A stretch of DNA of 64,000 bases from a virus. Of the stretch, positions 15,806 to 37,968 are shown piece by piece. The stretch spans positions 38,066-102,065 of the IMG/VR virus record IMGVR_UViG_3300032291_002123; one strand, 5' to 3'. Position numbers and translations under genes: made by a program. How positions within the stretch are numbered: position 1 is the stretch's first letter; each line of letters opens with the position of its first letter. A model generated the notes under the pieces. The model saw only the letters and a list, made by a program, of their open reading frames with translations. It was not told the DNA's origin and ran no database searches.

Positions 15806-15965
15806 CTTTTTTCTCCTTTTTAGAGGTCGGCAGCACTACCCCAAGCAAAGGGCCGCTGTTTTTCCACGCATTTTGTTTCTTTATTATGATTTTCTGTATA
15901 ACATAATACAAACCTCCATAAATAGCAAGCAATCCGAGCAGAGATAGCACGATAATTAGTTCCAT
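15798..15965 (-). CDS. Small single-pass membrane protein (55 residues)
   Basis: MELIIVLSLLGLLAIYGG begins a single N-terminal membrane segment followed by a lysine-rich tail (SKKEKKDE). It starts nine bases after the deacetylase-like gene and overlaps the next gene. Its codons include a degenerate copy of the intergenic 23-bp element (read as AWKNSGPL), the only copy found inside a gene. Confidence 0.65.
   Translation of the reverse strand: MELIIVLSLLGLLAIYGGLYYVIQKIIIKKQNAWKNSGPLLGVVLPTSKKEKKDE
15847..15869 (-). repeat. 23-bp element, copy 9 (coding, degenerate)
   Basis: On the minus strand GCGTGGAAAA, seven bases, CCCTTT; it lies inside the 55-residue membrane-protein gene. The usual A before CCCTTT is G here. 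Confidence 0.6.
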
Positions 15966-15973
15966 TTGAGTTC

Positions 15974-16969
15974 CTAACTCCTAACCAATGTATTCGAGTA
16001 GATGTCTTTGACAACATTTGCCCAGATTCTAGGCGTGTGGGTCTCGGCTTGGTATCCGCCAGCCCCGCCAATCAACACTCGCCCCTTACAATGCTTGTTA
16101 GCAAGGTCAGCGACAACACTTGAAGCATAGCGGTAGCCATCGTAGGTGTATTTCAAGCCCCAGCCCTCGCCCTCGTGTCCATCTGCCCCTGTTGCGAGCA
16201 GAATTACATCAGGCTCATACTCGTCAATCTTTTCGGCAATCAGGTCAATAGCCCAAGCCAACGCCTCGTCGCCCTCTCCTCGCTGTAAGTTGAAGTTATA
16301 CCAATGCTTGTCAGGGTCAGAGTATTCGTAGTTGCCTAGGTCATCCATCCCTCGCAACCAAGTGTCTGAGTGAACAGGGTAGACTCCGTGTCCGTGAATC
16401 GAGAAGGTGGGTATGTCCGTATCCTCTAAGAGATTCTGAACGCCGTCGCCAGCGTTTACATCCCAATCGATGTAGGCAACTTTCAAGCCAGCCTTACGAA
16501 ACTCTTTCGCAGCCCAAGCGAAGTCATTGAATACACAGAAGCCCTCAGACCAGCCGTATTGTGCGTGGTGTTTAGCACCCTGTGGATTGAAGCCAACCTG
16601 AGTTTCGCCAGCAATCATTTTCTCAACAAGGCGAGCAGTTCCAGCGAACATCTGAAAGGCGGTGTTGCCCATCTCTGTGCGCTTTCCATCCCAATCGTGA
16701 GACACTCCCTTATCAATTACCTCGCTCACGAACTTAGGGTCGTGGATAGTCTCCAACGCCTCCCTATCGCCATCACGGATTTCGGGTTCGATAATCTCCA
16801 CATTATCCGCACCAAGTTCCTCGGTAATGTATTGGGTAGCCAACTTAGCCCTAATCGGTTTCGTAGGGTGCGAGCCATCGCCAGAGCCTAACTGCCATTT
16901 GAGGTAGTCGTCGCTGTAAGCGATTGTTAGTTTATTTGGGTATGTCAATCTGTCCTTTTTTTCTTTCAT
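15974..16969 (-). CDS. Histone deacetylase/AcuC-superfamily protein with altered zinc site
   Basis: 331 residues with the HDAC/acetoin-utilisation fold: the catalytic His pair HH at 134-135, GFCVFND at 143-149, D263 in GADGHEGE, and Y306 in GGAGGY. The zinc-binding stretch, normally DxDxHHGDG, reads DWDVNAGDG: D170 and D263 are kept, but the third zinc ligand is N172 and the next His is A173. The family removes acetyl groups from lysines or polyamines. Loss of the His ligand suggests an inactive, re-targeted or differently metallated enzyme. It heads the operon containing two small membrane proteins and the peptidoglycan-binding protein. Confidence 0.85.
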   Translation of the reverse strand: MKEKKDRLTYPNKLTIAYSDDYLKWQLGSGDGSHPTKPIRAKLATQYITEELGADNVEIIEPEIRDGDREALETIHDPKFVSEVIDKGVSHDWDGKRTEMGNTAFQMFAGTARLVEKMIAGETQVGFNPQGAKHHAQYGWSEGFCVFNDFAWAAKEFRKAGLKVAYIDWDVNAGDGVQNLLEDTDIPTFSIHGHGVYPVHSDTWLRGMDDLGNYEYSDPDKHWYNFNLQRGEGDEALAWAIDLIAEKIDEYEPDVILLATGADGHEGEGWGLKYTYDGYRYASSVVADLANKHCKGRVLIGGAGGYQAETHTPRIWANVVKDIYSNTLVRS

Positions 16970-16978
16970 CGTGTTTCT

Positions 16979-17007
16979 AAGTTATCAAATAAACTAGAAA
17001 AAGTCAA
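16979..17007 (-). promoter_or_regulatory. Promoter of the deacetylase-like operon
   Basis: TTGACT (17002-17007) and TAACTT (16979-16984) with a 17-bp spacer, about ten bases upstream of the start. A copy of the 23-bp element lies immediately upstream of the -35. Confidence 0.65.
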
Positions 17008-17012
17008 GTTTT

Positions 17013-17035
17013 GCGTGGAAAATCCTTGACCCTTT
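17013..17035 (+). repeat. 23-bp element, copy 1
   Basis: GCGTGGAAAA-N7-CCCTTT in the gap between the deacetylase promoter and a small membrane-protein gene. A TTATGTAAT string follows at about 17046. Confidence 0.85.
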
Positions 17036-17057
17036 GTAATAAGCCTTATGTAATAAC

Positions 17058-17183
17058 TTAGTCTCCGAGGTGTTCGTGCCTATCGTGCTTGTTCAGCCAA
17101 TCGGTAAGCCAGAATAAGCCAGCCAGCATTATGACGATAGAGCCAATAACAGCACCAAAAATTAGTAGAGTTTCCATAGCCAT
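17058..17183 (-). CDS. Small membrane protein, probably leaderless
   Basis: 41 residues: METLLIFGAVIGSIVIML forms one membrane helix, then a charged HDRHEH tail. A -10 box (TATGCT) ends about six bases before the first ATG and there is no RBS, so translation is probably leaderless, common in actinobacteria. ATG at 17177 is an alternative start. Confidence 0.6.
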   Translation of the reverse strand: MAMETLLIFGAVIGSIVIMLAGLFWLTDWLNKHDRHEHLGD

Positions 17184-17188
17184 AATCT

Positions 17189-17219
17189 AGCATAAAAGAA
17201 ACCCCCTGACATAAGTCAA
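17189..17219 (-). promoter_or_regulatory. Palindromic -35 promoter that can also fold as a terminator
   Basis: The palindrome TTGACTTATGTCAG (17206-17219) is followed by TATGCT. CCCC on one side and GGGG on the other extend it to a hairpin with a T-rich tail, so it may also terminate the gene at 17241-17486. Confidence 0.55.
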
Positions 17220-17240
17220 GGGGTCGTGTCTTTTTAGGGT

Positions 17241-17486
17241 CTAGCCCTCCACAGAAGCCTCATAGAAAGGCGGAAGTGGTTGAGTTGATGCCAGAGCCTT
17301 GCCGAACTTTTCTATCGCCAAGCAGGTGTCAGCAATCCAAGTGTCGTAAAGCACCTTGTCCACACCTGAGTGGGCTTCGTTCTTTTTTGCTTTCAACTCG
17401 GTAAGCGAGAACAAAAGAACGCTTTTCATAAATTGTAGTTCTTGGGTCTCGAACTCTACTGAGGTTGAGGTTTTTGTTTCTGTCAT
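17241..17486 (-). CDS. Hypothetical small protein
   Basis: 81 residues, helical, no recognised domain. RBS GGAGAAAGAA. Last gene of a short operon with 17501-17929. Confidence 0.75.
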   Translation of the reverse strand: MTETKTSTSVEFETQELQFMKSVLLFSLTELKAKKNEAHSGVDKVLYDTWIADTCLAIEKFGKALASTQPLPPFYEASVEG

Positions 17487-17500
17487 TTCTTTCTCCGTTT

Positions 17501-17929
17501 CTAGTTGTTTTTGTTGTTTAGGTAGTTGATGTAGCCGTCGCTGTTGATTTCTGCCTGATACTCGTCGGCATACACCCTCGGGTTAGTTTCTACTCTTGGG
17601 TAAGCACAGGTAGAGCAAAGGTCGTAGTCGATGTCAATCCCAACTCCGCAAACGCACTTGCGCTCCTCCAACTCCTCGGGTTCGGGTTCGATGTCTCGGG
17701 TATCGCCCTCGTCGATAATCGGGTTAGCCAATCGCTCTCGCTCATACTCCTCACCCTGAGCAACTCCAACCTCGTAGCCCGTGTCATAGGCGAGGTCGAA
17801 AATCATACGGGTGTTGTAGAGGTGTAGGTATGGTTCGGTCTTGTTATACCAATCCCAGAACGCAGCCTCTCGCACTCGTGCTTTTCGGGTGCTTACATCT
17901 AGGAAAGCGTTTACTTCGTCTTGTGTCAT
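17501..17929 (-). CDS. Zinc-ribbon-containing hypothetical protein
   Basis: 142 residues; a C-terminal CVCG/CSTC pair (about 97-118) forms a probable zinc ribbon after an acidic EPEPEELEE stretch. RBS AAAGGACAAAA. Function unknown. Confidence 0.78.
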   Translation of the reverse strand: MTQDEVNAFLDVSTRKARVREAAFWDWYNKTEPYLHLYNTRMIFDLAYDTGYEVGVAQGEEYERERLANPIIDEGDTRDIEPEPEELEERKCVCGVGIDIDYDLCSTCAYPRVETNPRVYADEYQAEINSDGYINYLNNKNN

Positions 17930-17953
17930 TTTTGTCCTTTCTACAATACTAGG

Positions 17954-18142
17954 TTAGTCCGTGTCGAAGTGTTTGTCAAGTTCACTCGCCAAATAATTTA
18001 CGGCAATCGCAAGAATTAGGAAACACCCACCGATTAGCAGATTTGAGAATACAAGAGCATAACCAAAAGTTCCGCTAAACAGGATTGCCAGAGCAACTCC
18101 TCGAAGTAGGATTACCAATCCCTCCCGATTGTTCTTGCTCAC
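17954..18142 (-). CDS. Small two-helix membrane protein
   Basis: 62 residues with two hydrophobic helices and a basic N-terminus (VSKNNREG). I chose GTG at 18142 because it overlaps the stop of the upstream 36-residue ORF; an ATG at 18187 would extend it by 15 residues. Confidence 0.65.
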   Translation of the reverse strand: MSKNNREGLVILLRGVALAILFSGTFGYALVFSNLLIGGCFLILAIAVNYLASELDKHFDTD

Positions 18143-18249
18143 TTGTTCCTCTGCGGTCTGCTCTTGGCGATTTGATTTATAGCCCAAGCAAAAGCCAACG
18201 CCCCAGATACAATCAGCCCAATAGCAGCCACTAAAAGTAGTTCTCTCAT
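18139..18249 (-). CDS. Very small membrane protein (36 residues)
   Basis: MRELLLVAAIGLIVSGALAF forms one membrane helix; the tail is basic. RBS AAAGGACAAA. Translationally coupled to the next small membrane protein. Confidence 0.6.
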   Translation of the reverse strand: MRELLLVAAIGLIVSGALAFAWAINQIAKSRPQRNK

Positions 18250-18283
18250 TTTGTCCTTTCGTCGTTTCTATGTTAGCACATTA

Positions 18284-18550
18284 TCACAGATAAGGCAACA
18301 TACCAAGCCGTCTCGACAATTCTGCCTCACATTGCGTTGAGAGGTCGCCAAAGACCTCCTCAGCGTTCGGGATAGTTCCTGACCTGTCTAGGTAAGTAAT
18401 CCCAGCGATAAGGCTCACGAGAGTGTTTACCGAGAACTCAATCTCATTGTCAAAGTCTAAAAATCCAGCGGTGAAGTTGTCGTTCACTCGATTGACAAAG
18501 GCGACGATTTCGTCGTCTGTCATTTCGGTAATGCTTTTTTCGGCAGCCAT
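18284..18550 (-). CDS. Hypothetical acidic protein
   Basis: 88 residues, acidic and helical, no recognised domain. RBS GAAAGGC. Monocistronic or first of the following operon. Confidence 0.75.
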   Translation of the reverse strand: MAAEKSITEMTDDEIVAFVNRVNDNFTAGFLDFDNEIEFSVNTLVSLIAGITYLDRSGTIPNAEEVFGDLSTQCEAELSRRLGMLPYL

Positions 18551-18590
18551 AGTAAGCCTTTCTTTGTTTATTATTTTAGCAGATTATTCT

Positions 18591-18613
18591 GCGTGGAAAA
18601 TCCCCTACCCTTT
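18591..18613 (+). repeat. 23-bp element, copy 2
   Basis: GCGTGGAAAA-N7-CCCTTT in the gap upstream of the 18550 start codon. Confidence 0.85.
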
Positions 18614-18661
18614 ACGACAGAGCCGAACTCTCGCTCGGCTTGTCGGTGGGTGGGTGTATCC

Positions 18662-18880
18662 TTACCCGAAAAGATTTTTCCAGCAGGGTGGGCAATACCC
18701 TGATTGGAAACGCTCACGCTGGTCGGCGGTGAGATTAGGGAAAGCGTTTTGTATCAACGCCCCCTGATTGTAATCGAACAGGTTCTTGGAACTGACCTCA
18801 ACCTGAATAGTTCCCTCACACTTAGGGCAAGGCTTAGAGGTTGCGAGATACTCGCCCTCTTTGATTTTCTCGAACTTCAT
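18662..18880 (-). CDS. Zinc-ribbon protein
   Basis: 72 residues with CPKC at about 17-20 and CPPC near the C-terminus, a two-knuckle zinc ribbon. Strong RBS AAAAGGAGAG. Possible nucleic-acid or RNA-polymerase binding; unknown. Confidence 0.78.
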   Translation of the reverse strand: MKFEKIKEGEYLATSKPCPKCEGTIQVEVSSKNLFDYNQGALIQNAFPNLTADQRERFQSGYCPPCWKNLFG

Positions 18881-18904
18881 TTTGCTCTCCTTTTTATTTT
18901 CTAA

Positions 18905-19042
18905 CTAAACACGAACTCGGTAAACTCGCCAAGCGAGATTTCGCCACGGATAAGTTGCCATAGCAAAAGTGTCTGCCTCTTTTTTCGTAGCGAACTGATA
19001 AGGCTGAACACCTTGACCACGAACCTCAATAACCCAAATCAT
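18905..19042 (-). CDS. Hypothetical small protein (45 residues)
   Basis: The frame MIWVIEVRGQGVQPYQ follows directly after the stop of 19043-19531 (TAA then ATG). Tryptophan- and arginine-rich end (WRVYRVRV). No domain recognised. Confidence 0.6.
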   Translation of the reverse strand: MIWVIEVRGQGVQPYQFATKKEADTFAMATYPWRNLAWRVYRVRV

Positions 19043-19531
19043 TTACACCAACTCCTGTTCATCTTGTAAAACCACAAGCGAGACCACGCCTCGCTCTTTG
19101 ATTGGGTAGAACCCATACTGACCACGAGCAAAGTGGTAGTAGACATTAGCCAACTTGTAGCCCTTGCTCTCGTAGAACTTTTGCTGTTTGCCGTAAGAAT
19201 TAGCAACCGAAACATTGACCCACGATACAGAACCATCTGGGTTGTTTACTCGCCACACCTTGCCATACTTGCCGTCTACAATTTTTGCGTCTACGACATT
19301 ACCCTCCAAGTCGAGCAAAGCGTTTTCGTAATCAACGCCGTGATTGCGAGCCAAGCGAGCCTCACGGATGTGTTCACGATACATACCCTCGTGATAAAAA
19401 GCGTAGCCGTCGTTATCCAAAATACGCTGTTTGTCTAACTCAACAGCGTGAGCGTTCTGCTCACACTCGACAGCGTGAGCCTCCCACTCTTGTGGCGAAA
19501 CTCCCTCACGATACCAAATCGAAACTGACAT
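19043..19531 (-). CDS. Hypothetical protein
   Basis: 162 residues; helical, charged N-terminal half and a beta-rich middle. No domain recognised. RBS AAAGGAGATAC, own palindromic promoter. Confidence 0.78.
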   Translation of the reverse strand: MSVSIWYREGVSPQEWEAHAVECEQNAHAVELDKQRILDNDGYAFYHEGMYREHIREARLARNHGVDYENALLDLEGNVVDAKIVDGKYGKVWRVNNPDGSVSWVNVSVANSYGKQQKFYESKGYKLANVYYHFARGQYGFYPIKERGVVSLVVLQDEQELV

Positions 19532-19551
19532 TTGTATCTCCTTTCACTAAA

Positions 19552-19581
19552 ATAGTATCAAAGACTACTGACATTTGTCAA
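19552..19581 (-). promoter_or_regulatory. Palindromic -35 promoter
   Basis: TTGACAAATGTCAG (palindrome at 19568-19581) with TACTAT at 19552-19557, 18-bp spacer, upstream of 19531. Confidence 0.65.
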
Positions 19582-19583
19582 GT

Positions 19584-20033
19584 CTAAAAGCCATTGTTTT
19601 TCGCACAGACAGGGCCGATACCCTCGGCAACGCTCTTAGGGTCTGTCAGGAAAATACCGCAGACACAGCACATACCTGTTTCCATACCAAAAGCCTTAGC
19701 CTGTTCCAGCGACATTTTGTGTTCTGGTTTTAGGCGATAGATAGCCCCAGCCTCATACTCGAAACCGCCCTCTAATGCGTTCAGTTTCTTAGCGTAAAGA
19801 CGGCTACTCATTTTGCTCGGGTGAACTCGGTAGATGTCGCCGTTCGGCATACGATACATACCAACCTCGCCGACAATTCCAGCAGCCCGAGGTGCTTTTA
19901 GTAGCGAACCGATTAGGTCGCTAGCGTCTTTCGAGGTGAGAACCTCAAAGTTGATTTCCTCGCCATTGTAGACACGCTCGGTTAGGAGTTTCTCGATGAA
20001 CTCCACCTGTCGAACTGATACCTTGTTAGCCAT
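19584..20033 (-). CDS. DUF6011-like zinc protein
   Basis: 149 residues; the C-terminal CCVCGIFLTDPKSVAEGIG-PVC pattern is the DUF6011 zinc-binding signature common in actinophages and actinobacteria. The N-terminal part (QVEFIEKLLTER) is a conserved helical region in such proteins. Function unknown. Confidence 0.85.
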   Translation of the reverse strand: MANKVSVRQVEFIEKLLTERVYNGEEINFEVLTSKDASDLIGSLLKAPRAAGIVGEVGMYRMPNGDIYRVHPSKMSSRLYAKKLNALEGGFEYEAGAIYRLKPEHKMSLEQAKAFGMETGMCCVCGIFLTDPKSVAEGIGPVCAKNNGF

Positions 20034-20060
20034 TTGCTATCCTCTCTCTCTTACAACTAA

Positions 20061-20090
20061 AAGATAGCACACCCCCCTGACATTTGTCAA
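20061..20090 (-). promoter_or_regulatory. Palindromic -35 promoter
   Basis: TTGACAAATGTCAG (20077-20090), 18-bp spacer, TATCTT at 20061-20066, upstream of 20033. Confidence 0.65.
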
Positions 20091-20152
20091 TTCCTATTAG
20101 GCGTGTCGCTTATGTAATTATTTTGCCAGGCGGTTGCTAGGCTGCCTCGCTC

Positions 20153-20175
20153 AAAGGGTGGGGCTTTTTCCACGC
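20153..20175 (-). repeat. 23-bp element, copy 10
   Basis: Minus-strand GCGTGGAAAA-N7-CCCTTT between the 20033 promoter and the terminator at 20222. TTATGTAAT lies nearby at 20110. Confidence 0.85.
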
Positions 20176-20221
20176 AAAACCAGCCAAAAATAAAAGATAG
20201 TTAGCGTAAGTAATAAAAAAA

Positions 20222-20250
20222 GAACCTTGCCTCTCGGCAAAGTTCTTTTT
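20222..20250 (-). terminator. Rho-independent terminator
   Basis: GAACTTTGCC/GGCAAGGTTC-like stem with TCTC/GAGA loop and T-runs on both sides; ends the operon whose last gene is 20264-20497. Confidence 0.75.
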
Positions 20251-20263
20251 CGTGTGGTTCGGT

Positions 20264-20497
20264 TTACTCCTGCGAAAGTCGCTCGTTCATTAGAGCCAAG
20301 ACCTGTCGGCTGTGAGCCAGCACTTCGGTAAGCCTCTCGACCTCGCTGTGTATTTTTAGGTCAATCACCTTTTGGGATAACTTGACCAATCCCTCCATAA
20401 TTTTTATCTGCTCTGCCATAGCCCATACGATAGCCTCTCGTGGTGCGTTGGCGATTGTGGTTTCCCACTCCTCAATCGAGGTTAGTTGTTTTGACAT
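20264..20497 (-). CDS. Hypothetical helical protein
   Basis: 77 residues from MSKQLTSIEEWE (RBS AGGAAGTT); an upstream ATG at 20551 lacks an RBS. Coiled-coil-like C-terminal half. Function unknown. Confidence 0.7.
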   Translation of the reverse strand: MSKQLTSIEEWETTIANAPREAIVWAMAEQIKIMEGLVKLSQKVIDLKIHSEVERLTEVLAHSRQVLALMNERLSQE

Positions 20498-20557
20498 AAC
20501 TTCCTTTGGTTGTTTCGGCAAGGGGGAGATGTTCTCAATCCCCCGAGCCAAGTTTTT

Positions 20558-20767
20558 TTATTTAGCGTTTGCCCAAGCAATCGCTTTGTTGATTAGAGGT
20601 AGGCAAGCCATAAAGACCAGCCAAGAGAAATACATCACGAGCAGGTTATCCCACACGCCAGCACTTCCCGGTTCCGCACCCAGAGCCATTAGCAATAGGT
20701 TTAGAACGACATAAGCCAGAAAAATTACAGGAAAGAAAATCGTTCCTCGAACTAATCGCTTTATCAT
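20558..20767 (-). CDS. Small two-helix membrane protein
   Basis: 69 residues with two hydrophobic helices (FFPVIFLAYVVLNLLLM and the C-terminal LLVMYFSWLVFMACL). RBS AAAGGAC. A TTGACA-17-TACCTT promoter lies just upstream. Confidence 0.75.
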   Translation of the reverse strand: MIKRLVRGTIFFPVIFLAYVVLNLLLMALGAEPGSAGVWDNLLVMYFSWLVFMACLPLINKAIAWANAK

Positions 20768-20813
20768 TTTTGTCCTTTCGACATTTCTAAGGTATCAAAC
20801 CACTCGGCTTTTG

Positions 20814-21089
20814 TCAAGCGTTGTAGTAAGACCAATTTCGGTGGATTTCCTCTTGCTCGTATTCACGAATACATCTCGCACAATGTTGCTCGTCGTCTTT
20901 CGTGCTGAAAGCAATTTCCTCACCGCAGTTCGCACAGCCCATTTCGGTAGGCGTAGGTTCGTGAGGTGCGTTTCCGTCTGCCTCCTCACAGATTGTTTCG
21001 TCGCCCCACACCTTGTCGCTAATCCAAATGCTCGGCGATACTTCTGTGATTACCTCTCCACAATGTAGGCACTCGTTTTTCTTGGTCAT
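20814..21089 (-). CDS. Double zinc-knuckle protein
   Basis: 91 residues from MTKKNECLHCG, chosen because AGGAG is nine bases upstream. CLHCG pairs near the N-terminus, and CANCG/CARC form a second zinc site in the C-terminal half. Probably nucleic-acid or protein binding; function unknown. Confidence 0.75.
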   Translation of the reverse strand: MTKKNECLHCGEVITEVSPSIWISDKVWGDETICEEADGNAPHEPTPTEMGCANCGEEIAFSTKDDEQHCARCIREYEQEEIHRNWSYYNA

Positions 21090-21119
21090 AGTTATCATCT
21101 CCTAATTTCTAAGGTAGCA

Positions 21120-21398
21120 CTACCTACTGACATACTCGGTTTCCAATACTTCTGTTAGTAGTCGGTCATAGTCGTATTCACCCAAACGGAAACCAGCCTC
21201 GACAATAATCTCTGCCAACTTCACGCCCAAGCCATCTGCGACAGATTGGATTACTTCGCTCGACATCTCTTTTACGCCACGCTCTACTTCGCTTAGGTAG
21301 CCGATAGAGACATTTGATTTGGCGGATAGTTGTCTTAGTGTCCAGCCTCTCTGCGTTCGTAGGTCTCGAACTACATCACCTACGGCAACTCGCAACAT
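21120..21398 (-). CDS. ClgR-like XRE-family transcription regulator
   Basis: 92 residues. Nearly the whole protein is an XRE HTH: VGDVVRDLRTQRGWTLRQLS, then SIGYLSEVERGVKEMSSEV, the pattern seen in actinobacterial ClgR, activator of Clp protease genes. Start ATG at 21398 overlaps the upstream stop (TGATG). The downstream gene is preceded by a half palindrome. It is the best internal candidate for a protein reading the palindromic promoters, but no binding can be shown from sequence. Confidence 0.85.
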   Translation of the reverse strand: MLRVAVGDVVRDLRTQRGWTLRQLSAKSNVSIGYLSEVERGVKEMSSEVIQSVADGLGVKLAEIIVEAGFRLGEYDYDRLLTEVLETEYVSR

Positions 21399-21805
21399 CA
21401 CGACCAAACACCAGCCAAATACTTTTCGGCGGCTAGGTTTGCCTTTTCAGCAAAATCGATTGCCACATCTAGTTCGTGAAAAGGTTCGCTGAACCACTCG
21501 GTATCTGTTTCGTGTAGAACTACGAACCAAGAATTATTTACCCAACAAAAAACTTCCTCGTCTTTGCCAGACCAATCGCTAAGTTCCTTGTCGGTCTTGA
21601 TACCGAACTCCTCTAACTTATCGGTGTAGCGGATTACTTCGTCGTGTCCATTTTTATTCACAGCGTTGATACGCATTTCACCCTCACGATAAACCGCAAA
21701 AGGATTGTCCTCGCTTGACCACACCAATTCAGTTCCAACTTCGTTGGTGTAGAACGCACTATCCTGTCGCTTTGGGTCAGTTCCGTATTTCGTCAGTTTT
21801 GTCAT
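21398..21805 (-). CDS. Hypothetical protein coupled to the ClgR-like regulator
   Basis: 135 residues, acidic, no recognised domain. RBS AAGGAGAAAAAAC. Stop overlaps the regulator's start. Confidence 0.75.
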   Translation of the reverse strand: MTKLTKYGTDPKRQDSAFYTNEVGTELVWSSEDNPFAVYREGEMRINAVNKNGHDEVIRYTDKLEEFGIKTDKELSDWSGKDEEVFCWVNNSWFVVLHETDTEWFSEPFHELDVAIDFAEKANLAAEKYLAGVWS

Positions 21806-21819
21806 TTTGTTTTTTCTCC

Positions 21820-21999
21820 TTATAGATAGAACTTGTCGTCAAACTTTTGCGAGGATAAAAGTCGAAACTCCACTAACTTTTTTCCATTTAGTTTTGACCG
21901 AACGATTTTTTTCTCTGCGTGTTTCTGCGTGTTGGCGATAAGCGATACTTGTCGTATTCGTGGAACGCCGATGATTTCGTAGGTGTAGAGGTTAGCCAC
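21820..21999 (-). CDS. Hypothetical small basic protein
   Basis: 59 residues from a GTG at 21999 that overlaps the preceding stop (TAGTG). Sequence MANLYTYEIIGVPRIRQVS onward looks like a small alpha/beta domain. Unknown. Confidence 0.65.
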   Translation of the reverse strand: MANLYTYEIIGVPRIRQVSLIANTQKHAEKKIVRSKLNGKKLVEFRLLSSQKFDDKFYL

Positions 22000-22270: not shown

Positions 22271-22318
22271 AATTGTCCTTTCGTCTTTTTCATCTCTTAC
22301 CTAATTAGGTTATCAGGT

Positions 22319-22537: not shown

Positions 22538-22580
22538 TTTATTTCCTGCTTTCAGTTGGTTCTATTTTACACCAACTGCC

Positions 22581-23257: not shown

Positions 23258-23317
23258 TGTTATCGTGTCCTTTCCTTGACATTTCTAGGTTAGCAAATTA
23301 TGTGCGATAAGTCAATC

Positions 23318-23612: not shown

Positions 23613-23642
23613 AGTATGCCACACACCCCTGACATTTGTCAA
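23613..23642 (-). promoter_or_regulatory. Palindromic -35 promoter
   Basis: TTGACAAATGTCAG (23629-23642), 18-bp spacer, CATACT at 23613-23618, for the HTH gene. Confidence 0.65.
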
Positions 23643-23646
23643 ACTC

Positions 23647-23669
23647 AAAGGGTAGCGAGTTTTCCACGC
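23647..23669 (-). repeat. 23-bp element, copy 11
   Basis: Minus-strand GCGTGGAAAA-N7-CCCTTT, five bases upstream of the 23629-23642 palindrome. Confidence 0.85.
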
Positions 23670-24099: not shown

Positions 24100-24129
24100 A
24101 TTATGTCATAGACCCCTGACATTAGTCAA
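24100..24129 (-). promoter_or_regulatory. Palindromic -35 promoter
   Basis: TTGACTAATGTCAG (24116-24129), 18-bp spacer, CATAAT at 24100-24105, for paralogue A. Confidence 0.65.
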
Positions 24130-24314: not shown

Positions 24315-24337
24315 GAAGGGTAAGGGATTTTCCACGC
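24315..24337 (-). repeat. 23-bp element, copy 12
   Basis: Minus-strand GCGTGGAAAA-N7-CCCTTC between the preceding promoter and the terminator at 24358. Confidence 0.8.
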
Positions 24338-25149: not shown

Positions 25150-25172
25150 GCGTGGAAAATAAAGCACCCTTG
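25150..25172 (+). repeat. 23-bp element, copy 3
   Basis: GCGTGGAAAA-N7-CCCTTG in the gap between 24996 and the terminator at 25181. Confidence 0.75.
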
Positions 25173-25960: not shown

Positions 25961-25983
25961 GCGTGGAAAATTGGCTACCCTTT
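25961..25983 (+). repeat. 23-bp element, copy 4
   Basis: GCGTGGAAAA-N7-CCCTTT between the 25824 promoter and the terminator at 26003. Confidence 0.85.
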
Positions 25984-26258: not shown

Positions 26259-27104
26259 TTATTCTCCTTTACTTGCTTTGTATTTTGCTACTTCTCTTTC
26301 ATACTGCGAAACCTTTTTCGCAATCTTTGGTTCAGCCTCGGCACGAACTTCATCAACCGAAAGATTTTTCTTTTTCGCAATCGCAGCGAGAACTCGAACG
26401 AAATCTAATTTCCTGTTTTCGTTTTTCTCGGCTTGCCAAGTTCTCTCTGGGTCAAAGGTCGCAATCTCAAAACCAGCATTGACCAACCAAATCTCCGCAG
26501 AGCGCAAAGTGTTGATTGGCTCTCGGTAATCTCCAAAGCCGTAAACTTTGAGAGGGTTTCCGTCAAGGTCTTTGATACCTTTGAGTTCCCGTGCTTCATC
26601 ACGCACACGCTTTGCTTCATCACGCACACGCTTTGCCTCGACAAGTTCTGGGTCGGCAATCACACAAGGGCGATACTTGTAATCAACGGGGGCGTTCGGG
26701 AAACAAACAGAGCAAGCCATTTCCCCAGCGTCTTTCACAATCTTGTCCTCATCAGCGCCAGAGTATTCGGTGAGCCACAAGAACTGAGTGGTTGGGTAGC
26801 AAGTGCCACAATTCATAGTTGAGTGGATGTGTCCATTACCATTACGCACGAGAAACGCTCTTGACCAGCCCTCGTATTTCTTTTCCAACTCGGCAATCTC
26901 GTTTATCAACTTATCGAACTGCGGAGATAACTCGGCAATCTTTTCCTCGTTGCTAACGATAATCTTGTCGTAGTAAGAGTATGCGCTCTTACGGAAACGC
27001 TGGTTCTGCTCGGTGAGGTTTTGGATTTCGTAGAACACTCGGCTCTTTTGTTCCCACGCTTTCGCTAGGGCGGTATCCACTTCTATTGGATTTACTGTAT
27101 ACAT
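26259..27104 (-). CDS. Coiled-coil protein with CxxC/CxxC zinc site, conserved in actinophages
   Basis: 281 residues from MYTVNPIEVDTAL (RBS AAGGAG). N-terminal coiled coil (about 25-85), then HSTMNCGTCYPTT and ACSVCFPNAP, which form one zinc-binding motif found in many actinobacterial phage proteins, then a highly charged helix with three VRDEA-like repeats. Binding of nucleic acid is plausible; function unknown. Confidence 0.82.
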   Translation of the reverse strand: MYTVNPIEVDTALAKAWEQKSRVFYEIQNLTEQNQRFRKSAYSYYDKIIVSNEEKIAELSPQFDKLINEIAELEKKYEGWSRAFLVRNGNGHIHSTMNCGTCYPTTQFLWLTEYSGADEDKIVKDAGEMACSVCFPNAPVDYKYRPCVIADPELVEAKRVRDEAKRVRDEARELKGIKDLDGNPLKVYGFGDYREPINTLRSAEIWLVNAGFEIATFDPERTWQAEKNENRKLDFVRVLAAIAKKKNLSVDEVRAEAEPKIAKKVSQYEREVAKYKASKGE

Positions 27105-27127
27105 TACAACTCCTTTCCTACATCTAT

Positions 27128-27157
27128 AAGGTAGCACTAGCCCCCGACATTTGTCAA
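27128..27157 (-). promoter_or_regulatory. Palindromic -35 promoter
   Basis: TTGACAAATGTCGG (27144-27157), 18-bp spacer, TACCTT at 27128-27133. Confidence 0.62.
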
Positions 27158-27353: not shown

Positions 27354-27383
27354 AGAATACAGCATACCTCTGACATCTGTCAA
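27354..27383 (-). promoter_or_regulatory. Palindromic -35 promoter
   Basis: TTGACAGATGTCAG (27370-27383), 18-bp spacer, TATTCT at 27354-27359. Confidence 0.65.
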
Positions 27384-27388: not shown

Positions 27389-27411
27389 AAAGGGTAGCCC
27401 TTTTTCCACGC
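27389..27411 (-). repeat. 23-bp element, copy 13
   Basis: Minus-strand GCGTGGAAAA-N7-CCCTTT six bases upstream of the 27370-27383 palindrome. Confidence 0.85.
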
Positions 27412-29023: not shown

Positions 29024-29046
29024 AAAGGGTCGGTGATTTTCCACGC
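29024..29046 (-). repeat. 23-bp element, copy 14
   Basis: Minus-strand GCGTGGAAAA-N7-CCCTTT between the 28982 promoter and the hairpins at 29086-29193. Confidence 0.85.
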
Positions 29047-30168: not shown

Positions 30169-30191
30169 GCGTGGAAAATCGGCAACCCTTT
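30169..30191 (+). repeat. 23-bp element, copy 5
   Basis: GCGTGGAAAA-N7-CCCTTT directly beside the terminator at 30200-30219. Confidence 0.85.
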
Positions 30192-30219: not shown

Positions 30220-30226
30220 AATTTTG

Positions 30227-31988: not shown

Positions 31989-32010
31989 TTACATCATCTC
32001 CTCAATCTTG

Positions 32011-32039
32011 ATTGTGCCATAGTTTGTTTTGTTTGTCAA
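32011..32039 (-). promoter_or_regulatory. Promoter, non-palindromic class
   Basis: TTGACA (32034-32039), 17-bp spacer, CACAAT (32011-32016), upstream of the YubB-like operon. Confidence 0.65.
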
Positions 32040-32045
32040 GTCCTG

Positions 32046-32219
32046 TTAGGACATTTTTTCCAACTCAACTCGTGAGTTCAGGTGATGCTCGAGAGACGAA
32101 ACCAAGTTGTCAATCTCTGGGTTCTGGTGCATCTGGTTGTAAGCCTTGATGAACCCCACCAACTTGAGTTGGGCTTTTACTTCTTTGCGAACCTTGATTA
32201 CTCGAAACAGTTTTTTCAT
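32046..32219 (-). CDS. Small basic hypothetical protein
   Basis: 57 residues from MKKLFRVIKVRKEVKAQ (RBS GGAGATAAA), helical. Unknown. Confidence 0.7.
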   Translation of the reverse strand: MKKLFRVIKVRKEVKAQLKLVGFIKAYNQMHQNPEIDNLVSSLEHHLNSRVELEKMS

Positions 32220-32239
32220 TTTTATCTCCTCCACTTACG

Positions 32240-32268
32240 ATTATGCCAAAAATAATCTCGCTTGTCAA
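32240..32268 (-). promoter_or_regulatory. Promoter, non-palindromic class
   Basis: TTGACA (32263-32268), 17-bp spacer, CATAAT (32240-32245), the closest to consensus in the block. Confidence 0.72.
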
Positions 32269-32336
32269 GTTTTATTATTTCAGCGTGTCGCAGGTTCTTA
32301 TGCGATAACTATGACGCAGAAATCTCGACTCGCTCT

Positions 32337-32359
32337 GCGTGGAAAATTGGCGACCCTTT
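32337..32359 (+). repeat. 23-bp element, copy 6
   Basis: GCGTGGAAAA-N7-CCCTTT between the 32263 promoter and the terminator at 32369. Confidence 0.85.
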
Positions 32360-32368
32360 ACGAAAAAA

Positions 32369-32386
32369 CCCCAAGCGAACTTGGGG
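32369..32386 (-). terminator. Rho-independent terminator
   Basis: CCCCAAG/CTTGGGG stem, four-base loop, six-T tail on the minus strand; ends gene 32402-32809. Confidence 0.82.
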
Positions 32387-32401
32387 TGATTTCGATTTTG
32401 G

Positions 32402-32809
32402 CTATCGCCAGAACTCAGGGAGTTTTCGACTGAACGAGCCGGGGAACATAGTTTCCTCCTCGTATTCGATTCCAAAAATCTTGGTGAACGCCTCTCGCAC
32501 TTTGTCGCTGATGTCGAGCCACTCAGCGTAATACAACTCGCTCGTATTGCCCTCGTAGCCGGGAACTGCGTTCTCCTGCGTGTAGTCGCCAACGACCACG
32601 ACCCTATCGCCAGCCCAGCGACCAGATGCATCGGTCAGCGGAAAGTCGCCACCGCCAGATTCCGGGCTAATCATAGTCAGCAGATAAATCGCATCCGATA
32701 GTCCTCCGATGCTACCCGTATGCTCGAACTGCTTTCCCAGCAATCCGATTGCATAAGGGCTTACCTGTTCCTGCTTGTCTAGGTTTACGAGTTTGTGATA
32801 CTGACCCAT
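32402..32809 (-). CDS. Conserved hypothetical protein
   Basis: 135 residues starting MGQYHKLVNLDKQEQVSPYA, a beginning shared by phage and actinobacterial proteins of unknown function. Acidic, alpha/beta. TTGACA at 32893-32898 provides a promoter. Confidence 0.78.
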   Translation of the reverse strand: MGQYHKLVNLDKQEQVSPYAIGLLGKQFEHTGSIGGLSDAIYLLTMISPESGGGDFPLTDASGRWAGDRVVVVGDYTQENAVPGYEGNTSELYYAEWLDISDKVREAFTKIFGIEYEEETMFPGSFSRKLPEFWR

Positions 32810-32921
32810 CCGTTTATTTCCTTCCGTCTCTTTCGCTTGCCGTTTGGCAATCCGTTTACTACCTATTCAGTTTAGGGCATCTCTTGCCGTTTTGTCAAGC
32901 GTTAGGCTAGCCGTGTTTCGA

Positions 32922-34925
32922 CTAGCCGTTTCGCTTGCCAGCGGTTGTCAATGCTCGGGCCGCTGATTCGCCAATCATCGTCGAGATTGACCCTGCGGTT
33001 GCACCTCGCTTGATTTCGACATACACCGCATCCGTTCCTCTTATGTGATAAGGGATGAAGTCATTCCCACCACCCTCGAACCCGAGCCAGAGAACTGCCA
33101 CGCCGTTCCGTTGGCACGAGGCTAGCCAATGCTTTACCTGCTCTCGTTCCTCCTGCGTGTAGTATCCGTCAGACACAATCACGAGCAGTCTCGCACCCGA
33201 GCCGTGAAGTAGATTCATCGAGCCGTCAATCGCCTTGAACGCCTTGCCGAACTTCTCGGTGTTGTCTCGTGCCGTATACACATTCACATCGGTGAGGTGC
33301 TGTCCCGGCTTGAGAGTGGCGAACACATCGTTGCCGTAGTAGACCATAGATGCCTTGCCGTGAACTCGTCGAACTGCCTCTGACATAACCCAAGCGGTAG
33401 TCGCCATTGGTTGCATCGCCTCGCCCATCGAGCCAGAGATGTCCACCATAATTCCGACATTCAGTTCTGGGTTGTCTGTGTGCTTGCGCTTGGTCGCTCT
33501 CCAAGGTTCGACCTTGGCATTGACACCATTCGCTTTATAGGCTGCTCTCTGAACCATCGCACGAGAACGCAGACGACCTACTGGCAACTCGCTCGTAATC
33601 TCGACCTGCGAACGCTCACGATACTTTGCCTTCTCGAGCAGTCGTGCAACACGAACTGCACTCGCTCGTTCCTCGCCAGTTGGTTTACGAACCTCGACCA
33701 GTTTTGAGTTGGTTGCTAATCCATCAGAAGGACCTGTGCCACGACCAAACACTTCAGTCGCAACATCCTTGTGCTGTTTCGCCTCTTTCGCTGAATCTGC
33801 CTTGTCCTTGGCAATCTCTTTCCACTCCTCTGATTCAATCTGTTCCTCTGCATCAGAACGAGATGAAATCTCGGCGTTGTCCTTTGCCTCGTTCAAGGCA
33901 TCGAGCATCTCTTTGATAAGGTCTTGCTCGGCAGAAGTTGAACCTGAACCAGAACCTGAATCAGAACCCTCCTCTGATTCGCCAGATTCTGAATCGCTAG
34001 AACCTGAACCTGAACCAGTCTCACCAGATTCTGAATCGCCAGATTCTGATTCGCCAGAACCAGAACCAGTCTCGCCAGTTGGAGATGGAGTTCCTGAACC
34101 AGATTCTGATTCGCCCTTCTCACCAGTCGGCGATGGAGTTGGGTGGCAACCGGGGTGAGGTGAGTTTCCAGTCTCGCCCTTTTCTGCTTTTGTCTCGTTG
34201 ATAACTTTGACCCACTCACGAGCGAGGTCGTAAAGTTTTGTCGCATCAGCGTGAAGGTCGTGCGCTTGGAACTCAATCCAAATCGCACGAAGTTTTGCAA
34301 CGACATCTGCACCAAGAATCTTTTCGAGAACAGGAACAACAGGTTCGACATCACTCTCGTCAAGAACACCTGCATCAACTCGAGCGAGGGTTAGAGCAGC
34401 GAGGAAAGATGCACCTGCAACATTAGTAATCTTTGCAACTTGGTTTTCCAAATCTGCAACCACGATGTGCAACGCAGATGAACGCAGAAAAACTTTGTTC
34501 TTTGGATTCGTGCGAATACCAAAAGCCTCGATACGACCCTCCTCCAAATTGAACAGCGCACCAAACTCGTCTCGAGTTAGTTCTGCTTGTGCTTGTTCGA
34601 TTGACCAGCGTGAGAATCGAGCGTGGAGTGCCTCGTGGAAAATTGCGCCAGTCGCAACTGGGTGAGCAAGTTGATTGATTCGCTTAGTGAGGTCTCCAAC
34701 CTCGGCAGGTTCGATGTTGCCAAAAGCAACTTTTGTATTTACTTCAATCTCGGCACTTCGTGGTGAGAACGCAGCCGGGGCACCAGACACAGTTGTCTCG
34801 CCCAAGTTCACTACTAGGTCGTTTCGGAACGACCAGTCATTGACCAGCGCACCAATCTGCGCCCCTGCTCGTAGCCATTCGCTAGGTGTTGATTTTCTTG
34901 TCTCGGCAATTCCATAGTGAGCCAT
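32922..34925 (-). CDS. CobT-like VWA-domain protein with HExxH motif
   Basis: 667 residues. N-terminal domain with HEALH (97-101), a zincin-like motif; an acidic Ser/Gly/Glu linker of about 80 residues (SGSGESESG-type); then a C-terminal von Willebrand A domain with the MIDAS DISGS (about 495). Such VWA proteins work with MoxR-family AAA+ ATPases as metal-insertion or remodelling machines. The MoxR gene lies directly upstream. The substrate is unknown; cobalt insertion need not be the role. Confidence 0.85.
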   Translation of the reverse strand: MAHYGIAETRKSTPSEWLRAGAQIGALVNDWSFRNDLVVNLGETTVSGAPAAFSPRSAEIEVNTKVAFGNIEPAEVGDLTKRINQLAHPVATGAIFHEALHARFSRWSIEQAQAELTRDEFGALFNLEEGRIEAFGIRTNPKNKVFLRSSALHIVVADLENQVAKITNVAGASFLAALTLARVDAGVLDESDVEPVVPVLEKILGADVVAKLRAIWIEFQAHDLHADATKLYDLAREWVKVINETKAEKGETGNSPHPGCHPTPSPTGEKGESESGSGTPSPTGETGSGSGESESGDSESGETGSGSGSSDSESGESEEGSDSGSGSGSTSAEQDLIKEMLDALNEAKDNAEISSRSDAEEQIESEEWKEIAKDKADSAKEAKQHKDVATEVFGRGTGPSDGLATNSKLVEVRKPTGEERASAVRVARLLEKAKYRERSQVEITSELPVGRLRSRAMVQRAAYKANGVNAKVEPWRATKRKHTDNPELNVGIMVDISGSMGEAMQPMATTAWVMSEAVRRVHGKASMVYYGNDVFATLKPGQHLTDVNVYTARDNTEKFGKAFKAIDGSMNLLHGSGARLLVIVSDGYYTQEEREQVKHWLASCQRNGVAVLWLGFEGGGNDFIPYHIRGTDAVYVEIKRGATAGSISTMIGESAARALTTAGKRNG

Positions 34926-34958
34926 TTAGCCACCAGTCCTTTCATCTCTACTTCTCAA

Positions 34959-34987
34959 TTATTGCAAAATCTCTGACTAATGTCAAG
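34959..34987 (-). promoter_or_regulatory. Palindromic -35 promoter with 17-bp spacer
   Basis: TTGACATTAGTCAG (34974-34987) and AATAAT (34959-34964), upstream of the VWA gene; the one palindromic copy with a 17-bp spacer. Confidence 0.62.
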
Positions 34988-35041
34988 TCCTTCTTTGGTG
35001 TGTCTGGGGCGATGGGATTGGAGACCACCACCCCAGACGAA

Positions 35042-35071
35042 CACGAATCTAGGGAAGGAACTAGATTCGTG
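35042..35071 (-). terminator. Hairpin overlapping the MoxR stop codon
   Basis: CACGAATCTAG/CTAGATTCGTG, 11-bp perfect stem, eight-base loop. The MoxR stop codon is in the stem. No clear T-tract, so it may be a stability or attenuation hairpin. Confidence 0.6.
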
Positions 35072-36071
35072 CTGGCTTGACTTCCTCGCCGAACGCACGA
35101 CTGAAAACATCGGCAACGACTGGTCTGTCAAGTTCTGGTGCGCTAGCAAGCAAGTTGCTAATCGCAAACGAAGTTCCGAACAACTCGGCGAGGTCTCGGA
35201 AAGCGAGAACTTCACGCATCTGCGGAGACCACGACACTTCATCACTCGCTTGCTTTTTCGCAAGATTCTGGCTGGCAGTAATCACAACAGCAGGAACGCC
35301 CAACTTACGAGCGATAGTCCAGTCAGTAGTCATTTCTGCTTGAACAGAGAATCGAGAGAGCAACGCCTCGGAGAGAACAACTCCCGGTGCATTGGGGTTC
35401 GTTGCACTAACCACAAAGAATCCATCCTTGGCTTTTACTGTGCCACGCTCCGGGTTTTGAGTGATAGTGATTTCACCACGACCATCCATTAGTCCATAGA
35501 CCAACGAAAGAACTTTCGGGTCTACCAAACCAATCTCGTCAATCAGGAGAACTTTACCCTCCTCGACTGCACGAACGAGAGGACCATCAATCCACTCGAA
35601 CCCACCACTTGCAGTCTGAACATAACCACCAACGAAGTCTGCAACTTCGGTGTCGCCAGTTCCAATGACTGTGTAGAGGTCGTCGCCAAAAGCAGCCTCG
35701 AGCATCGCAGTCTTACCAGTTCCCGGTGCGCCATAAAGCAGAACATACTTCTTGGCATCACGAGACTTGCGAATCACTTCGATGTCGGCGTGTTCAGTAT
35801 TACCCCACTTGCGAGAAGTGTAGGTCTCACCATTAGGTCGAACATAAACTCCTTCACCACTAAGTGCCTCTGCCACGATGGTTTTCACCCTCTTTGTAGT
35901 TCCTGAATTGTCTCGCACACGAATGACTGCACGACCAGATGCCTCGTCGAAAAACTTGTCAAGCGATGCATCTAATTCTGCATTTAGTTTTTGACCACTA
36001 ACTGCAAACAGAGCCTCGGAAAGTTCTTTCGAGAATCGTTCTTGGTCGATAATTACTTGTTGTCTATTCAT
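35061..36071 (-). CDS. MoxR/CobS-like AAA+ ATPase
   Basis: 336 residues. Walker A GAPGTGKT (114-121), Walker B VLLIDEIG (about 172-179), sensor-1 region VSATNPNAPG and an arginine-rich end fit the MoxR/CobS AAA+ family. An N-terminal helical domain of about 90 residues precedes the ATPase. Probably acts with the VWA protein encoded next. RBS GGAGGAGATTAC. Confidence 0.88.
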   Translation of the reverse strand: MNRQQVIIDQERFSKELSEALFAVSGQKLNAELDASLDKFFDEASGRAVIRVRDNSGTTKRVKTIVAEALSGEGVYVRPNGETYTSRKWGNTEHADIEVIRKSRDAKKYVLLYGAPGTGKTAMLEAAFGDDLYTVIGTGDTEVADFVGGYVQTASGGFEWIDGPLVRAVEEGKVLLIDEIGLVDPKVLSLVYGLMDGRGEITITQNPERGTVKAKDGFFVVSATNPNAPGVVLSEALLSRFSVQAEMTTDWTIARKLGVPAVVITASQNLAKKQASDEVSWSPQMREVLAFRDLAELFGTSFAISNLLASAPELDRPVVADVFSRAFGEEVKPARI

Positions 36072-36086
36072 TGTAATCTCCTCCTA

Positions 36087-36587
36087 TTACGCTGATACTG
36101 CTACTGAATTGAAAAGTGATTCGCCCCACGAGAGTGCTTTACGAGAACGCTCGATTCGACGATAGAGACCATTCGGAGTTTTTCCGTCTCGAATGTTTGC
36201 CAAGTCCTCGTAAGAAAACTCAACTGCGAGTGGTCGCTGATACAAAGTCCAACCTTGTGCATACAACTGATTGAACTGGTGAGCGATTGCGCTAACATTC
36301 TGCCCAGCGTGTTCTTGTGCTTGGTCGAGTTCCAATGGCTCGAACTCACCATAAGCATCACGAGATGGTGCTGGATAAGTTAGTGGGCCATTGTTCTTGT
36401 CGATTGTCCAGTTTCGACGAGGGTGGTAAGTAGAGATTCGTCTGCGTAGGTTTGCAAACGGAACTACTTCATTCTCCAGCGTGATTGCCCAAGGGGTGAT
36501 AATCATCTGGTAGGTGTATACATCCTTGCGGAACTCCAAGTAGAGTGCCTTCCCGGCTGCATCCTTTTTGGTTTTTAGAGTTGTCAT
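36087..36587 (-). CDS. Hypothetical protein of the MoxR operon
   Basis: 166 residues, alpha/beta, no recognised domain; N-terminal KTKKDAAGKALYLEFRK. RBS GGAAGGAAAA. Promoter TTGACT-17-TTCAAT upstream. Sits 15 bases before the MoxR gene, so it may serve the same machine. Confidence 0.75.
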   Translation of the reverse strand: MTTLKTKKDAAGKALYLEFRKDVYTYQMIITPWAITLENEVVPFANLRRRISTYHPRRNWTIDKNNGPLTYPAPSRDAYGEFEPLELDQAQEHAGQNVSAIAHQFNQLYAQGWTLYQRPLAVEFSYEDLANIRDGKTPNGLYRRIERSRKALSWGESLFNSVAVSA

Positions 36588-36665
36588 TTTTTCCTTCCTT
36601 CTAACTCTTACTTACTAATTGAAACATAGTTTGATTCAAAAGTCAAGCGTGTCGCCAAACTTTTT

Positions 36666-37115
36666 TTAGTCAATTCGTGAATCTGCATAAGCCTCGATGC
36701 CAATCGCATTTAGGTGCTGAGATACTCCTCGAGCGACTTGCTCTTTGAGTTGTAGCGACTGTCGAGTTTGAGCGAACCCTTTACCATCGACCCAGAACTG
36801 CACGCCCTTGTAGCCACCACCCCATTGGTAGTGCTTGTATCCTTTACCAGTTTCGAGAATCCACTTAGCGAACGCAGAACGCCCATTCGGAACTACGACC
36901 CAAGCGAACCCACAAACTCCATCTGCTACGAAGTAGGTTTTTTTAGAGTAGTCGATGTCATTCCCGAGGGGAGTGGTTGGTGAACCCACAATCATAGGAG
37001 TGGGTGGAGTGGCTTTTGCCAATGCCTCGTGCGATACACGCTGGAGGTCTAGCCAAATCTGCTCGAACTTGCGCTGATTGGCAACGCTGACTTTTGCTTT
37101 TTTAGTGGTTGTCAT
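36666..37115 (-). CDS. Hypothetical protein
   Basis: 149 residues with an aromatic GYKHYQWGGGYKGVQFWV stretch; no family recognised. RBS GGAAGGAC. Confidence 0.75.
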   Translation of the reverse strand: MTTTKKAKVSVANQRKFEQIWLDLQRVSHEALAKATPPTPMIVGSPTTPLGNDIDYSKKTYFVADGVCGFAWVVVPNGRSAFAKWILETGKGYKHYQWGGGYKGVQFWVDGKGFAQTRQSLQLKEQVARGVSQHLNAIGIEAYADSRID

Positions 37116-37138
37116 TTTGTCCTTCCTTCTACTCTCTT

Positions 37139-37168
37139 ATTATTGCATACACCTCTGACACTTGTCAA
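37139..37168 (-). promoter_or_regulatory. Palindromic -35 promoter
   Basis: TTGACAAGTGTCAG (37155-37168), 18-bp spacer, AATAAT (37139-37144). Confidence 0.65.
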
Positions 37169-37186
37169 GGGTATTTTTAGGTGTGT

Positions 37187-37438
37187 CTAATCGCTGACTA
37201 TCTCGTAGCCCTTCTTGGTTTTTTTATCTACGAGGTCGTCGATGAAAATCGAGGCGAGGAACTTGCTATCAAAAGTGTGCTGTTTTTGCTGTCGTGAATA
37301 CCACATCTCTGCTCGACCCCAACTAACTTGAACGACTGACTTACCACTCGACACTTCAAAGAGGTCAACCACATAACGCTTTTTGAACCCCCAGTCGCCT
37401 CGTGCGCCTTGGGAGGTTGCTTCCAAAATAATCTTCAT
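37187..37438 (-). CDS. WGR-domain-like protein, probably leaderless
   Basis: 83 residues from MKIILEATSQG. KKRYVVDLFEV, VSWGRAEMWY and KTKKGYEIV match the WGR domain pattern (nucleic-acid binding in PARP-like and bacterial proteins). TTGACA-17-CATACT ends six bases before the ATG and no RBS exists, so the mRNA is probably leaderless. Confidence 0.75.
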   Translation of the reverse strand: MKIILEATSQGARGDWGFKKRYVVDLFEVSSGKSVVQVSWGRAEMWYSRQQKQHTFDSKFLASIFIDDLVDKKTKKGYEIVSD

Positions 37439-37444
37439 ACTCAG

Positions 37445-37473
37445 AGTATGGCAAAAAAATTGGCAGATGTCAA
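37445..37473 (-). promoter_or_regulatory. Promoter of a leaderless gene
   Basis: TTGACA (37468-37473), 17-bp spacer, CATACT (37445-37450); the predicted start point falls on the A of the ATG at 37438. Confidence 0.68.
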
Positions 37474-37479
37474 GTTTGT

Positions 37480-37688
37480 TTATAGAACAGGCGTGGCGCA
37501 CTCAGCGCAGACAATCCATTCAGCCTCGTCGTCCAGACATACAACGAATGCGACGAAGCCAGCGTCAGTGCTGCCCACTTGCTCGTGGCATTGCTCGCAC
37601 GACTCGTCGTCGAAGATGTCGAGTCCCACTGCGTTACCAGCGTCGACGTCGTGCGGTTCTTCAATCAGGTGCATCTCGATGTGTCTCA
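37480..37688 (-). CDS. Zinc-binding small protein
   Basis: 68 residues from MRHIEMHLIEEPHD. CEQCH and CAEC form a likely zinc ribbon; very acidic. The first ACGT to the right of the ACGT-free block (37646) is in this gene. Confidence 0.7.
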
Positions 37689-37905
37689 TGTTTATAGGAT
37701 AAAACATCATCCGTTACGTGATTTGGACGTTGCTGCTACACGTCTGGTGCGAGTCATCCGTTTGCTGCGGCTGACTGTAGCATAAGCGTAAGTCGCACCC
37801 GTTGCTTGCTGAGCAGCGTCCCCGTCACTGGCTACGCAGCAATCCCTTGCCGTCATCGCATGCCGTTATGTAATTCCCAGCGCAGCGGGAGTCATCCATC
37901 AACGT

Positions 37906-37928
37906 GCGTGGAAAATCAGGCACCCTTT
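37906..37928 (+). repeat. 23-bp element, copy 7
   Basis: GCGTGGAAAA-N7-CCCTTT; identical to copy 8 through the spacer (TCAGGCA). Confidence 0.85.
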
Positions 37929-37945
37929 GGTGGCACGCCGTTGCT

Positions 37946-37968
37946 GCGTGGAAAATCAGGCACCCTTT
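37946..37968 (+). repeat. 23-bp element, copy 8
   Basis: Direct repeat of copy 7, 40 bases downstream, same spacer sequence. Confidence 0.85.

Follow-up and report, generated by a model that had tools for sequence, protein, structure and literature searches.

The 64,000-nucleotide window analysed here (positions 38,066 to 102,065 of IMG/VR virus record IMGVR_UViG_3300032291_002123; all coordinates below are those of the window) belongs to a record that is probably a fragment of an actinobacterial phage. Nearly all genes between 14 and 38 kb apparently lie on the minus strand, and this block of small genes contains 14 copies of a 23-bp element composed of two fixed halves, GCGTGGAAAA-N7-CCCTTT. 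All copies are located between a gene for a 303-aa protein (39053-39964, minus strand), which forms the outer limit of the block, and a gene for a 182-aa protein with two helix-turn-helix (HTH) domains (14642-15190, minus strand), while the terminase large subunit gene terL (12898-14286, minus strand) marks the inner boundary.

The element and its surroundings in the studied phage

Scanning for GCGTGGAAAA-N7-CCCTTT with up to three mismatches allowed returned 14 matches, in agreement with the positions and orientations (eight plus, six minus) listed in a sequence-only reading of this DNA. Twelve copies are exact and two carry a single mismatch in the last base (24315, CCCTTC; 25150, CCCTTG). 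The statement that none occurs outside 15.8-38 kb also held, as no further copy was found in the whole 102,065-base record and the reversed-pattern control gave zero. Dinucleotide-preserving shuffles contained 0.76 copies on average and three at most, which rules out a chance origin of the 14 copies. The spacer is seven bases long in every copy, as had been noted; its sequence, noted as varying, is not entirely free, ending in A in 13 of the 14 and starting with T in ten. Because the final spacer base is A in 13 copies, the right half is better given as ACCCTTT.

The copies mostly occupy gaps with an untranscribed look, often upstream of promoters that look host-type (TTGACA / TATAAT). Nine copies have a recognisable terminator (hairpin and T-run, called by script and by eye) 7-68 nt upstream with respect to transcription, so that the earlier placement of 13 copies between a terminator and a promoter was overstated. 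On the minus strand, these are 20153-20175 (terminator 46 nt upstream, -35 62 nt downstream), 23647-23669 (32 nt and 4 nt, respectively), 24315-24337 (terminator 14 nt upstream), 27389-27411 (68 nt and 5 nt) and 29024-29046 (a short terminator-like hairpin 43 nt upstream, -35 36 nt downstream). Those on the plus strand are 25150-25172 and 30169-30191 (terminator 7 nt upstream of each), 25961-25983 (15 nt) and 32337-32359, which follows a terminator downstream of the 135-aa gene after cobT. The copy at 17013-17035 (plus) stands 5 bp before the -35 of the promoter of a gene for a 331-aa histone-deacetylase (HDAC)-fold protein (15974-16969, minus strand; PF00850, 3e-44) and has no clear terminator, 18591-18613 (plus) overlaps a possible -35 (TTTCCA-18-AATAAT), and 15847-15869 (minus; GCGTGGAAAA-ACAGCGG-CCCTTT) falls within a plausible 55-aa open reading frame (ORF). 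The last two copies, 37906-37928 and 37946-37968 (both plus), form a tandem pair in a repeat-rich stretch with neither terminator nor promoter, and represent a single local duplication, a 26-bp direct repeat including the spacer with a 40-bp period. Three CCGTTATGTAAT copies surround this pair in the repeat-rich segment 37700-38110, which adjoins the endolysin gene.

A scored promoter was found downstream of seven copies, the start of its -35 lying between 9 nt within the element and 68 nt beyond it. Since the same script called a terminator at 38% and a promoter at 37% of random positions of the region, its scores are loose, and strong hairpins were assessed visually. The element itself contains no hairpin and showed no secondary structure relative to shuffles, and an Rfam search of the region gave no family match.

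Two further repeats were observed around the copies. Several promoters, for example those at 20061-20090, 23613-23642, 24100-24129 and 27354-27383, share TTGACAnATGTCAGGGG, a palindrome across the -35 and possibly an operator for a further regulator. A second short repeat, approximately TTATG[CT]nATAA, is found 17-62 bp from many elements (examples at 17050, 20110, 25920, 27450, 32300, 37865, 38010 and 38085).

Lineage-specific versions at orthologous places

The record encodes a portal protein, TerL, an endolysin, CobS/CobT-like proteins, a ribonucleotide reductase, two tRNAs and a transfer-messenger RNA (57777-58112, minus strand; tag AESRSAFALAA). Among named genomes, TerL places Actinomycetia phage DSL-LC01 of Dishui Lake nearest (77%), with Microbacterium and Gordonia phages of 100-195 kb next, and a TerL search of IMG/VR returned 469 relatives, the best at 89%; a second search for relatives with a 292-aa protein as query found nothing. 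The gene order endolysin, cobS, cobT, many small genes, terL, portal is conserved.

The element is real and regionally confined, with conserved halves, orthologous placement and a version that changes jointly between lineages. It was followed in relatives by an undirected search for gapped word pairs across the syntenic block, in which a bipartite element ranked first or close to it in every member of a set of relatives, and sites were then called with position weight matrices. Site counts cover the studied phage (G000, a partial genome) and six syntenic lake-phage records, in all of which the element is present, each lineage having its own version. Altogether 139 sites were called across the seven genomes, 12-30 per record: 14 of GCGTGGAAAA-N6-ACCCTTT in G000, 12 of a nearly identical version in G017, 20 and 18 of GCttGGAAAA-N6-ACCCCTT in G015 and G016, 16 of GGGTGGAAA-N8-CCCCTGG in G024, and 29 and 30 of GCATGGAAAA-N7-ACCcagg in G001 and G002. 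Further versions are GTGTGGAAAA..ACCCC in G022/L051 and ACATGGAAAA..ACCCTT in L030/L033. All versions are asymmetric, and the orientation relative to transcription is mixed, six to eight in G000 and 63 plus to 76 minus over the seven genomes. Pairs of sites about 40 bp apart occur in G001, G002 and G000.

The sites of each record are confined to one block of 22-29 kb. Within the blocks the reversed-sequence control gave 0-2 matches, and outside them whole records contained 0-4 matches, as many as in reversed sequence. Homologues of the 303-aa and two-HTH genes enclose 129 of the 139 sites, the other ten lying within about 3 kb past the two-HTH gene. Microbacterium phage Zooman (OK040793) has a perfect 17,079-bp direct terminal repeat (1-17079 and 175652-192730), which starts just before the homologue of the 303-aa gene (Zooman gene 1, the first in the repeat), spans the endolysin gene and closes just behind the two-HTH homologue (gene 40, its last; 50.6% identity), a few kb before terL. 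On the basis of this synteny, the element block would correspond to the terminally repeated module of small genes. Where contigs end in the phage family speaks neither for nor against a terminal repeat.

Individual sites are kept at fixed places, in some cases with unchanged orientation, while their letters change. In the gap that follows the 135-aa gene downstream of cobT, six genomes (G000, G024, G015, G016, G001 and G002) have an equally oriented element, in the version of the respective lineage and each time after a terminator. In the gap before the HDAC-fold gene, the element stands 3-7 bp before the -35 in G000, G024, G022 and G017, and farther upstream in G015 and G016. Alignment of the close pair G015 and G016 gave 95.4% identity for the fixed positions, compared with 87% for the spacer, 79-80% for the upstream flanks and 87-89% for the downstream flanks. 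Promoter adjacency is conserved at some loci, such as the HDAC promoter in four genomes, but not as a distance, which ranges from 3-7 bp to about 100 bp; the fixed distance or phase to the -35 expected of a promoter-upstream activator site was not found.

Other repeats were encountered in the same genomes. The element block also holds AAAGCATAAG in G001 (11 copies) and AAAACATAAG in G002 (nine copies), and the G015 block (L112-L113) contains CCGCGAGCGC 13 times, many copies apparently intragenic, with a similar situation in G016. G007 (14 copies) and L067 (seven) carry a look-alike, CACACGGAA-nn-CCnGGAAAA, which has a similar left half and occurs without the HDAC-fold gene. Relatives without the element carry other repeats, mostly of promoter type. 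In G010 (L182-L183), and also in G009 and G011, there are 23 promoter-like copies of TTATTCTGTnTG-nnn-CGGAG-nnn-AATTTCAATTTCC, all in one orientation on the strand opposite to transcription, in which the stem flanking CGGAG varies with compensation. The 30 CTAAAGNNGTTATAAT-like copies of DSL-LC01 (OQ999401, L168) all run along the direction of transcription and are likely a promoter type of its own.

A candidate binder and the competing readings

Because dispersed sites change their letters jointly at fixed places, a trans-acting recogniser is called for, and the concerted change points to a diffusible DNA-binding protein evolving with its sites rather than to an RNA, a mobile repeat or a host site. 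Judged from these sequence comparisons, it is almost certain that a virus-specific DNA-binding protein docks at the elements. The reading that we favour, and consider reasonably probable, is that they form an operator-like set for the small-gene module. A sequence-specific protein encoded by the phage would recognise both half-sites, GCGTGGAAAA and ACCCTTT, which lie somewhat over one helical turn apart; the sites would constitute one regulon-like set over the module, from the 303-aa and endolysin genes to terL; and the binder would repress, activate or insulate the separately promoted units of this module, which would be the early, terminally repeated part of the genome.

For the reading of two different half-sites, the most obvious candidate is the two-HTH protein encoded at the edge of the block, which suits the task by its architecture, though we put it forward with low confidence. 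Both HTH domains are confidently predicted (mean predicted local distance difference test score, pLDDT, 89.7), and the first resembles sigma-70 region 4.2. Among the matches listed by sequence and fold searches of the PDB, those to this domain were mainly sigma region 4, and none was a mycobacteriophage repressor such as L5 gp71; Foldseek found no close solved structure for the protein, and the viral models it matched were mainly uncharacterised phage proteins. In the first recognition helix, the residue after RQI/RQV (C versus I/V) tracks the left half-site (A/TTGG versus GTGG), a correlation that is complete in 14 of 14 grouped tree rows, yet requires only about two changes.

Several observations weigh against the operator-like reading or this choice of binder. 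The two-HTH protein is also encoded by G005, G012, G014 and G029, none of which yielded a comparable element, and its second HTH stays almost constant while the right half-site varies; the binder is known as a candidate only. The distance to promoters varies, and so does the orientation, which is uncommon among activators and repressors, and some sites of relatives are intragenic (in the endolysin and 303-aa genes). The early timing of the module and its terminal repeat in the studied phage derive from gene order only.

Other genes were considered as the source of the binder. By presence, the HDAC-fold gene matches the element best: it was found in every relative with a GGAAAA-type element that was examined over the region and in no relative without the element. 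It encodes no recognised DNA-binding domain, and neither do the other co-occurring candidates, a phosphatase gene at 12365-12901 and the genes at 32402-32809, 43290-43526 and 26259-27137. The phosphatase, of the dual-specificity type, is encoded directly downstream of terL on the plus strand, opposite to its neighbours. A tyrosine integrase, either as binder or as marker of lysogeny, was set aside since PF00589 did not pass the cut-off in 11 records (G000 being partial).

Among the alternatives to the operator-like set, a stoperator-like or insulating role, in which protein bound between terminator and promoter stops read-through and keeps small units independent, is unlikely. A terminator directly precedes nine of the 14 copies, and the distribution over short intergenic gaps resembles that of the stoperators of cluster A phages, which however act in a single orientation relative to transcription (PMC9283540) whereas ours are mixed; in addition, no relative had a tyrosine integrase (PF00589) over the cut-off. 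Distinctly unlikely is an architectural or DNA-entry role, with a phage protein that folds, protects or holds the leading, terminally repeated segment during or after entry. This would suit the strict confinement of the sites to the block syntenic with the Zooman repeat, their indifference to orientation and the pairs about 40 bp apart, but in five genomes sites reach up to about 3 kb beyond the two-HTH gene, and no terminal repeat was demonstrable in the studied phage from the contig ends, which point neither way.

Recombination sites for the exchange of gene cassettes, one of the possibilities raised in the sequence-only reading, are very unlikely. The elements do lie at unit boundaries, and at about a third of the orthologous sites of G015 and G016 homology, as we read the alignment, stops on one side near the element. 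In this close pair, however, most of the main breaks fall off the elements, with one within about 40 bp of an element, which leaves the proposal unsupported there; the small serine recombinase of complete relatives is also present where the element is absent, and recombination does not require halves conserved at fixed orthologous places. A site for a host DNA-binding protein, for which it can be said that the phage binder is a candidate only, is highly improbable, as the version differs between phages that share gene content. Moreover, no bacterial genome with a set of such sites was found among 85,000 species genomes (the host possibly being outside this collection), because these yielded only 12 scattered single matches, unclustered and none in an actinobacterium. 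Hardly any weight can be given to an RNA element that acts as a leader, processing signal or terminator. Transcription of a few copies is possible (15847 lies within an ORF), but the occurrence of both orientations relative to transcription, the lack of structure and of an Rfam match, the frequent location between terminator and promoter, and the conservation of the halves with freer spacers bear out the original preference for a DNA-binding site.

Relation to known repeats and meaning for the phage family

The element is comparable in kind to two systems, the stoperators and the SPBRE of Bacillus phage SPbeta. Cluster A phages carry more than 20 asymmetric operators and stoperators in promoters and short intergenic gaps, and the L5/TipsytheTRex repressor of about 183 aa binds as a monomer and has two HTH-type domains (PMC9283540). 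The element shares with stoperators the many asymmetric sites in intergenic gaps, and for a monomer that would place two different HTH domains on an asymmetric site, as the two-HTH candidate might, the cluster A repressor offers a precedent. Mixed orientation and confinement to one block set it apart from stoperators, as do its 23-bp length with a variable spacer, the lack of an integrase by PF00589 in the 11 records and a binder that is a candidate only. SPBRE is a repeated intergenic element that was likewise recognised from sequence first and later proved to comprise the sites of the master repressor MrpR, a protein with the tyrosine-recombinase fold (PMC10516654); its sequence differs from that of our element, and no PF00589 protein passed the cut-off here, although a degenerate MrpR-like fold could escape the model.

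The resemblance to two other mycobacteriophage repeats is smaller. The 17-bp repeats of cluster O, of unknown function, occur in more than 30 copies, intergenic and partly genic, denser towards one genome end, and form the perfect dyad TGTTCGG-N3-CCGAACA (PMC4351075). The element, unlike these, is asymmetric and restricted to a single block. Start-associated sequences of cluster K mycobacteriophages are short repeats tied to many small genes and linked to translation starts. In contrast to these sequences, which are mentioned in PMC4351075, the element lies mostly upstream of promoters and in either orientation.

A bolder possibility, which we regard as doubtful, is that the sites mark, in a widespread family of lake actinobacteriophages, the first-entering, terminally repeated module, and that a co-evolving two-headed phage protein silences, insulates or organises this module independently of orientation. 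To our knowledge, gene control in this freshwater actinobacterial phage family has not been studied. The about six recognition versions at orthologous positions provide natural replicates of a joint change in specificity of a protein and dozens of sites, which, with the two-HTH protein and version-swapped sites, is directly testable in vitro. The binder, if identified, would be a factor that controls or organises the whole module in these widespread freshwater actinobacterial phages, and if the possibility of a first-entering module were true, phages with no known integrase would have module-wide control with lineage-specific recognition codes.

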